A program made the position numbers and the translations under genes. A stretch of 64,000 nucleotides of DNA from Xanthomonas sacchari (GTDB lineage Bacteria > Pseudomonadota > Gammaproteobacteria > Xanthomonadales > Xanthomonadaceae), in the NCBI RefSeq assembly GCF_040529065.1, contig NZ_CP132343.1, forward strand, positions 682,001 to 746,000. The letters are read 5' to 3'. Shown one piece after another: positions 25,701 through 27,031 of the stretch (its first letter is position 1; the number at the start of each line of letters is the position of its first letter). The notes beneath the pieces are model-generated. The model was not told the origin of the DNA. It saw nothing but the letters and a program-made list of their open reading frames with translations, and did not search any database.

Positions 25701-25730
25701 GCAGACGTCCGCCGACACGGAGGGTGTGCC

Positions 25731-25734
25731 GTAG
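25731..25734 (+). repeat. Left remnant of the REP target interrupted by the IS110 element
   Basis: GTAG is the head tetranucleotide of the local REP family. Joined to the sequence starting at 26969 (GAGCGGCTTC) it rebuilds a normal REP head, so the element entered here. Confidence 0.7.
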
Positions 25735-25749
25735 ATACCGTCTTACCCC

Positions 25750-26721
25750 CTAGCAGGCAAGGCCCCTTTTCGGATCGAACGCCGTGCCCGACTTGAGAAC
25801 CCCGTAGGCCAGGTGCAGGAGCTTGCGCATGGCGGCGCACACGATCTGCTTGCCGGCTTTGCCGCGTTCGCTCAGTCGCTGTTTCAGCGTCCGGATGATC
25901 GGGTTGTGGGTCATGGCCACCAGGGCCGGCATGAACAGGCCCGCGCGCAGGCGGGGCGAGCCGGTGCGCGAGATGCAGGCGTGGCCTTTGCGCTCGCCCG
26001 ACTGCTGCAGGCACGGATTCAGGCCCGCGAAGGCGGTCACCGCCGAGGCATCGGCGAAGCGCCTCACATCGCCAAGTTCGGCCAGCATCAAGGCCGCGCT
26101 GGTGTCGGCAATCCCCTGGATGCTCACCAGCAACTCGCGCTGCCCACGCAAGGTCGGATCCTGGTCGATATGGTCATCGATGGCCTGCTCGATCTGGGCG
26201 ATGTGGTGTTGCAGATCGGCCAGATGGACCTGGATCGAGTCCTTTACCTGGGCCGGAGCGACCTCCAGCCGGTTGCGCTCCATCTGCAGCATCTGTTGCA
26301 GGTCCTGGCGCCGGCGCACCAGCGCTTTGAGCTGCTTGAGCGCCGGCGGATCAGGGTGCCAACGGCGTAACTGTTCGCGGTGACGCAAGGCATAGCTGGC
26401 GATCAGCTTGGCATCGCTGCGATCAGTCTTGACCCGGCTGAGCTGGCTGCGTGCGTACGCGGCCGTCTGCGCCGGGTTGAGCACGCACACCCGATAGCCG
26501 CGTGCGTGGAGGAACTCGGCCAGCGCCTGGTGGTAGGTGCCGGTGGCCTCCATGGCGATCCAGCTATCGGGCTGCGCATGCGTCTGCAGCCATGCCTGCA
26601 GGGCCTGGAAGCCCTTGGCATCGTTGGACAACTTGGCCTTGGTACGGTGCTTGCCATTGGTCAGATCGATGGCCACATCGAAACTGCGTTTGGCGACGTC
26701 GATGCCGATGACGGGAGACAT
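25750..26721 (-). CDS. IS110 family transposase (bridge-RNA-guided recombinase)
   Basis: A 323-residue recombinase. The RuvC-like N-terminal domain has the DEDD residues D8 (VIGIDVAK), E58 (WIAMEATG), D100 and D103 (VKTDRSDAK). The C-terminal Tnp domain has the conserved serine S241 in NPCLQQSGERKG, followed by RTGSPRLRAGLF. From memory, IS621 uses a serine at the same position as its DNA-attacking residue. A coiled-coil-like region (about 125-185) separates the two domains. The reading frame is complete, so the element may be active. The ATG at 26721 gives the usual MSPVIGID start; an open frame continues upstream but covers the bridge-RNA region. Confidence 0.93.
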   Translation of the reverse strand: MSPVIGIDVAKRSFDVAIDLTNGKHRTKAKLSNDAKGFQALQAWLQTHAQPDSWIAMEATGTYHQALAEFLHARGYRVCVLNPAQTAAYARSQLSRVKTDRSDAKLIASYALRHREQLRRWHPDPPALKQLKALVRRRQDLQQMLQMERNRLEVAPAQVKDSIQVHLADLQHHIAQIEQAIDDHIDQDPTLRGQRELLVSIQGIADTSAALMLAELGDVRRFADASAVTAFAGLNPCLQQSGERKGHACISRTGSPRLRAGLFMPALVAMTHNPIIRTLKQRLSERGKAGKQIVCAAMRKLLHLAYGVLKSGTAFDPKRGLAC

Positions 26722-26744
26722 ACGCGATTCCTCCATCGTGTCAG

Positions 26745-26925
26745 GGTCATGATCGGCGCTGGGCCCGGTCCTGCCTTGTCGATGCGAGTTCACGCCCGGG
26801 GGGCGGACTCTGGATACCGTTCGGACACACAAGGGCCAGCATGTGGAGGGCGGAGCCGATCTACGATGCAAGCTCGAAGCTTTAGGAGCGACTGGACCTC
26901 CCACACCTCCTCCGATGATCAGTCG
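26745..26925 (-). ncRNA. Candidate bridge RNA of the IS110 element
   Basis: Read on the minus strand from the element's 5' end, three structures appear in the order expected for IS621-type bridge RNAs. First is a hairpin (CCGA/TCGG). Second is a stem closed by GTGTGG and CCACAT enclosing an internal loop with an inner hairpin AGCTTCGAGCT. One side reads CGCTCCTA, identical to the target left of and through the core; the other reads CGTAG, complementary to CTACG right of the core. Third is a stem GCTGGCCC/GGGCCCAGC enclosing a second loop with an inner CGCCC/GGGCG hairpin. One side there reads ACGGTATC, as at the element's 3' end, and the other ACAAG, complementary to CTTGT at its 5' end. The exact transcript ends are not known. 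Confidence 0.75.
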
Positions 26926-26966
26926 GAAGACATGACGCCTGTTTAGGGGCGACATGTCCAGATACA

Positions 26967-27031
26967 AGGAGCGGCTTCAGCCGCGATGGGCGTTCCCGGG
27001 AACGCCTGTCGCGGCTGAAGCCGCTCCTACG
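26967..27031. repeat. REP dimer (right part, interrupted by the IS110 element)
   Basis: GGAGCGGCTTCAGCCGCGA and its inverted copy TCGCGGCTGAAGCCGCTCC face each other across a short spacer containing the palindrome GTTCCCGGGAAC. The outer right end keeps the CTAC form of the GTAG head; the left head was cut by the insertion. Confidence 0.85.

Follow-up and report, generated by a model that had tools for sequence, protein, structure and literature searches.

Introduction

In IS621 of Escherichia coli, as described by Durrant et al. 2024 (PMC11208160), the bridge RNA lies in the long left end of the element with the target loop before the donor loop; its four guides include the core, the core is CT and the target is a REP sequence. 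ISPpu9 and ISPpu10 of Pseudomonas putida are IS110 elements located in host REPs, in all seven copies of each in strain KT2440, with a 2-bp repeat (PMC1525189), and ISPpu10 is one of six elements whose bridge RNA was drawn by Durrant et al. (PMC11208160). Going by these accounts, REP-directed IS110 elements (PMC1525189) and bridge RNAs (PMC11208160) are both already known, and the two occur together in IS621 and ISPpu10. Siddiquee et al. 2024 described target-selecting RNAs from non-coding regions, namely the seekRNA of ISEc21 and those of IS1111 elements such as ISPa11; in their account the RNA of IS1111 elements is usually downstream, with subterminal inverted repeats and two target-matching regions in reverse order (PMC11187229).

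Here we describe an IS110 element in a 64,000-nucleotide stretch of DNA (the window), in the leader of which a preliminary description had read a bridge RNA by eye from the raw sequence. We are nearly certain that this leader specifies the bridge RNA of an insertion sequence of the IS110 group. The locus resembles the bridge-RNA arrangement already described for IS110 elements, here in a different host, and seems to provide guides both for the landing repeat and for the element's own ends. Judged by the published description of the RNA, it shares with IS621 the place of the RNA, the loop order, four core-including guides, the CT core and a REP target, whereas the REP itself, the guides and the donor letters are different and the protein has diverged. 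Its resemblance to ISPpu9 and ISPpu10, also by description, is that of a REP-sited IS110 element with a 2-bp repeat, and relatives from P. shirazensis and P. putida (L083–L088) are 57–58% identical. Like ISEc21 and the IS1111 elements, it would select its target by an RNA from the non-coding region, which lies upstream as in the IS110 type (PMC11187229). Among the open papers searched, none dealt with this element or, in a search not aimed at that point, with guides tracking host REP variants.

The element and its recombinase

The complete element occupies positions 25733–26968 on the minus strand and has a CT core at each end, at 26967–26968 for the left (5') junction and at 25733–25734 for the right (3') junction. 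Its boundaries were obtained from the flanks of 18 copies in the same genome (one contig of 4,957,212 bases) and from empty sites in two relatives. The window copy is 1236 bp long including both cores, and the remaining 17 copies are 1235 bp. One of the 18 (G000 C1:115962–116930) has a TAG within the recombinase gene. More multi-copy IS110 elements, distantly related at 26–28% identity, were seen in genomes G134, G111 and G006.

The recombinase gene (25750–26721, minus strand) encodes a protein of 323 aa with RuvC-like DEDD and Tnp domains. The protein matched Pfam families PF01548 (DEDD_Tnp_IS110, 2.4e-35) and PF02371 (Transposase_20, 1.1e-21), the NCBIfam model NF033542 'IS110 family RNA-guided transposase' (2.3e-72) and, in the PDB, the recombinases of IS621 (1.1e-64) and ISCro4 (6.4e-63). 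The alignment with the solved IS621 recombinase spans residues 5–319 (PDB 8wt6), which supports the earlier reading of the element. A DEDD recombinase domain followed by a C-terminal Tnp domain is the arrangement of the IS110 group. Candidate catalytic residues were placed at D8, E58, D100, D103 and S241.

The distance from core to ATG is 245 nt and that from stop codon to core is 15 nt, giving the long non-coding left end and short right end of IS110 elements. Location of the RNA in the right end, as in IS1111 elements, was not found: the right end extends 15 nt past the stop codon, and the RNA model described below matches the window only in the leader. The recombinase frame of the window copy is open through the leader (25750–26967; a 405-aa ORF from TTG). 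In a 66% identical homologue from G018 the frame is open for 327 aa only, so conserved coding sequence does not seem to extend into the leader.

Insertion sites

Each of the 18 copies has the dinucleotide CT of a REP arm as its insertion point, so the REP specificity predicted in the preliminary description holds for every copy in the genome. The target consensus is GC(A/G)GCT(G/A)AAGCCGCTC-CT-AC(G/A), where hyphens delimit the core, and the junctions are identical in 18 of 18 copies (...AAGCCGCTC-CT...GACGGTAT-CT-AC(G/A)). In the window, the left target is AGCCGCTC, an arm of the REP, at 26969–26976 and the right target is ACG at 25730–25732 (both minus strand, read from the window and the flanks of the 18 copies). 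The orthologous empty site in relatives G202 and G204 consists of an intact REP in which CT is present once. As CT stands at both element ends and once in the empty site, we conclude that it is a dinucleotide core, with no longer duplication. The letter after CTAC is A in both empty sites and G beside the window copy. The REP targeted by the window copy and another of opposite orientation form a BIME-like arrangement (26968–27030), in which this second REP (27008–27030) is intact.

In the collections searched, the nearest named copy was found in rice-seed Xanthomonas sacchari and is 97.3% identical across the full element; its insertion point is GAAGCCGCTC-CT, followed by ACC. Contig-end fragments of 33–35 codons at 97% were present in Xanthomonas sp. 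NCPPB 1128. Judging from these kin alone, the host is probably plant associated.

Guides in the leader

Four guides can be read on the minus strand of the 5' leader in the order left target, right target, left donor, right donor. The left target guide, AGTCGCTC plus core CT (26884–26893), matches the left target with one U-G wobble and co-varies with it in relatives; overlapping it, CGCTCCTA lies at 26890–26883. Further out this guide is readable as AGTCGCTCCT, which pairs with the REP AGCCGCTCCT with the same single wobble, and two copies in relatives (L143 and L203) are at AAGTCGCTC sites that match the extended guide fully. The right target guide CGTAG (26865–26861), assigned from the comparison of guides and flanks in relatives, pairs with CTACG. 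The left donor guide ACGGTATC (26820–26813) equals the 3' element end, which reads GATACCGT on the plus strand at 25734–25741 and constitutes, with the core, the left donor ACGGTATCT (25733–25741, minus strand). The right donor guide ACAAG (26779–26775) complements the right donor CTTGT, the 5' element end including the core (26968–26964). On rereading of the window, the letters and places quoted for these four matches in the preliminary description were all correct.

To estimate how often the motifs arise by chance, the 244-nt leader was dinucleotide-shuffled 20,000 times. The target-left, target-right, donor-left and donor-right motifs were contained in 55, 2767, 51 and 2193 shuffles, respectively, and none of the 20,000 contained all four, in agreement with the earlier remark that the four matches were hard to explain by chance.

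In one copy (L003, G000:C1:3585880–3590129) the first 83 bp of the element are duplicated in tandem, from CGCTCCT of the REP to CGCTCCT of the left guide; with the same sequence in guide and target, the guide DNA can serve as a repeat. That one copy had inserted into the guide of another was considered for this locus and set aside, because a tandem duplication of 83 bp between 7-letter repeats is the simpler account.

Covariation of target guides with insertion sites

We collected 81 element copies with readable ends from the fetched loci (81 of 90 rows were kept after removal of exact repeats) and aligned 49 distinct leaders. Rows were limited to these loci and to elements with ends resembling CTTGTATCTCGAC and, at the 3' end, AAGACGGTATCT, so that elements with other ends could not appear. 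Guides were compared with flanks in 80 of the 81 rows, the nested L003 row being excluded, and on the right side in 74 of the 80, six having no full right flank. Relatives in Pseudomonas, Stutzerimonas and others kept the donor ends, occupied different sites and had left guides that differed accordingly, for example TTCGCCCCT, ACCCATCCT, CGACCGCCCT and GCAGCGGCT.

Among 17 distinct left guides, 114 of the 119 letters before the core were identical to the guide's own left target, compared with a mean of 3.4 of 7 for unmatched pairs; here each distinct guide is represented once, so that the weaker matches of L081 and L178 do not show, and the guides of L172, L176 and L179 were shifted by one letter by eye. 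None of 200,000 permutations reached the observed sum, the highest being 92. At every one of the seven positions preceding the core, 15–17 of the 17 guides agreed, and at the eighth 7 did; this drop suggests how long the guide is. Little can be learned from the first position before the core, which is nearly invariant (16 of 17, with a shuffled mean of 14.2). The weaker matches were those of L081 (4 of 7), L172 and L178 (5 of 7) and L061, L170 and the group of the window element (6 of 7), and the L088 guide has CG in place of the core CT. Recombinase pairs that are 77–85% identical have guides differing at two or three of the seven letters, and their flanks differ with them. For the right target, the letters CTAC agree nearly without exception (73 of 74 rows at letter 3 and the same at letter 4). 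The fifth letter agrees in 59 of 74 rows, a count in which the REP consensus of the respective host is a confounder, and later letters agree in at most 30. At the position where the right guide reads G, the empty sites in G202 and G204 have A and the site of the X. sacchari copy has C, which counts against the bridge-RNA reading.

A second comparison used 26 elements that the RNA model described below had found without the use of flanks, four of which (L172, L176, L178 and L179) were also part of the first. The sum of best matches was 208 of 260, the best match being sought anywhere in leader positions 46–140 and falling in some cases outside the expected guide, and the highest value in 100,000 permutations was 187. 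Own flanks matched at least 8 of 10 letters in 18 of these elements; the other 8 matched 7 or fewer, within the range of foreign flanks, and only 9 of the 26 elements matched their own flank better than any foreign one. Both comparisons lead us to conclude that the target guides correspond to the insertion sites and co-vary with them, as bridge RNAs of IS110 elements do. Re-addressing of the guides in nature is unusually clear among these relatives, which are compact elements with many target guides and almost a single donor; the set may interest specialists and could be useful for choosing programmable recombinases.

Covariation of donor guides with element ends

Almost all close relatives share one set of donor letters, and donor covariation therefore rests on few changes. 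L170 has ACAG in place of ACGG at its 3' end (ACAGTAT) as well as in its guide (ACAGTATC), and its 5' end CTTAT is accompanied by ATAAG in the guide, compared with CTTGT and ACAAG in the window element. The same pair, CTTAT with ATAAG, occurs at the 5' end and in the right donor guide of L169, and L179 has ATGGTAT in both 3' end and guide. A single donor mismatch was found in L178 (guide ACGGTAAC, end ACGGTATC). The donor guides thus match the element ends and co-vary with them in L170, L179 and L169.

Structure of the leader RNA

Rfam gave no match at gathering score in the whole window, and membership therefore had to be tested by covariation. RNAalifold analysis of 24 leaders yielded 33 pairs, of which 18 have changes on both sides. 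Paired cells made up 97.4% of the alignment positions concerned (88.9% in shuffles) and there were 84 double-change cells (20.9 in shuffles), counts that use a structure derived from the same alignment, which favours itself. Four of five such measures were reached by none of 500 shuffles; the fifth, further pair types, was not distinguished from them (39 against 37.0, with 90 of 500 shuffles as high). Structures slid along the alignment were at most 46.6% paired. The folding energy of the single sequence was not stronger than that of shuffles (z −0.94) and is not informative. These data indicate a conserved two-loop fold, in which the outer stem of the target loop belongs to the single fold and not to the counted consensus.

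A covariance model built from the 24-leader alignment was run on the window and 50 loci, for which E-values are rough. It matched the window, itself a seed member, at 26754–26968 (minus strand; model R1, 185.8 bits), and this match, as distinct from a mapped transcript, defines the bridge RNA region. The minimum-energy fold has two 5' stem-loops within 26911–26959 (minus strand), at 26959–26928 and 26927–26911; the second is helix 1 of the consensus and the first is absent from the consensus structure. The structured leader thus extends further 5' than 26925, the limit given in the preliminary description (26745–26925). A match at E ≤ 0.001 was obtained in 29 of 49 non-seed IS110 loci, the other 20 giving a weaker match or none. 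Three of the 29 were partial (L036, L189 and L192) and were excluded; the other 26 were full length and just upstream of recombinase genes 32–52% identical to the query. Example scores are 119 bits for L169, 91 bits for L176 and 61 bits for L173.

Alternative explanations

Absence of covariation between loops and flanks among homologues had been named at the outset as grounds for abandoning the bridge-RNA reading; covariation was present for the left target guide, for the donor guides with few independent changes, and for the stems. This result bears on three other explanations. The leader could be no more than a structured 5'-UTR, or a small RNA regulating recombinase translation, with the protein alone reading the REP. 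There is precedent in the REP-sited ISPpu9, for which two regulatory small RNAs and a folded 5'-UTR were described and regulation was proposed before bridge RNAs were known (PMC8450116), and the two roles could coexist. A regulator nevertheless leaves unexplained that loop letters track the target and the ends across relatives, and we regard a purely regulatory leader as very unlikely.

Likeness of guide and target by descent would require that leaders and flanks are both host repeats, e.g. through a captured piece of REP, and that they do not pair. Many targets are indeed host repeats, the guide has the DNA sequence of its target, and in L003 the two even delimit an 83-bp duplication. However, agreement falls from 15–17 of 17 over the seven letters before the core to 7 of 17 at the next; moreover, left and right guides match opposite strands, L176 matches 12 of 12 letters (after the shift by eye) at a site that is not REP-like, and the donor guides bear the same relation to the element ends. 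Descent is thus extremely improbable. Chance matches in one leader, which gain some plausibility from the fact that two of the four motifs are 5-mers present in 14% and 11% of shuffles, have a negligible probability given that no shuffle held all four motifs and that relatives co-vary.

Proposed mechanism

With the leader read as a bridge RNA, the steps from transcription and circle formation to loading and catalysis can be proposed by analogy. As in IS621, the element would be excised as a circle, joining its 3' end (GACGGTAT) to its 5' end (CTTGT) across CT, and a promoter-like pair across this joint may drive the RNA. The first RNA loop would pair with the REP, the left guide with the bottom strand of AGCCGCTCCT and the right guide with the top strand of CTACG, while the second loop would pair with the circle joint. 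The recombinase would then swap strands at the shared CT, so that the element would land in fixed orientation in one REP arm and leave CT at both ends.

The circle joint carries TTGCCT-17-TATCTT. The best promoter-like pair was TTGN..-(16–17)-TATCTT in all 13 elements scored, 10 of them in one register, with only 4 matched by 1.2% or fewer of plain shuffles; the pair of the window element is weak singly, 6.4% of shuffles being as good. These pairs are suggestive of a promoter rebuilt at the circle joint. The guide DNA equals the left target and is followed by AAA, not AC(G/A), so the right guide should keep the element from becoming its own target.

The right guide and host REP variants

The right guide reads CTACG in the group of the window element and CTACA in G201, G206, G207 and the P. 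shirazensis and P. putida relatives. We counted exact REP ends followed by G or A in 16 hosts, of which 10 were usable; REP sites were too few in G578 (2:1), G579 (1:0) and G583 (0:0), and G580, G581 and G582 were searched only with a foreign repeat type. The G:A counts were 221:122 in G000, 139:154 in G202, 12:429 in G201, 2:343 in G206, 9:550 in G207, 59:62 in G018, 16:67 in G574, 0:446 in G575, 45:20 in G576 and 66:9 in G577. The 12-letter pattern was noisy in G018 (the reversed control gave 44 for G); a 14-letter pattern was then used, which gave 116 sites with 1 in the control, and 49 of the 100 matches listed had G.

A-type REPs made up 81–100% in the five hosts with guides for A, and G-type REPs 47–88% in the five with guides for G. 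The guide letter was the commoner REP letter in 8 of the 10 hosts, with near-ties in G202 and G018. Guides for A come from one Xanthomonas subgroup and Pseudomonas, which are few lineages for a claim of adaptation. Copies carried G in 14 of 18 cases in G000, against the REP background of 221:122, and in 9 of 14 in G202, against 139:154; preference for the guide-matching variant within genomes was not significant (combined p = 0.059). Our tentative view, held at slightly less than even confidence, is that the bridge RNA has been re-addressed in nature on a nearly frozen donor end and that this re-addressing follows host REPs down to single letters. If this were general, IS110 guides would be under host-specific selection and would record the co-evolution of element and REP repeats. 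The hint of guides following host repeats adds to the specialist interest of the element set, which could serve for testing guide-RNA evolution towards such repeats.

The REPs themselves vary within one genus. Counting G and A only, the letter after AAGCCGCTCCTAC is A in 97–99% of cases in G201, G206 and G207, compared with 36% in G000 and 53% in G202, a strong difference between species that constitutes a lineage-specific REP variant.
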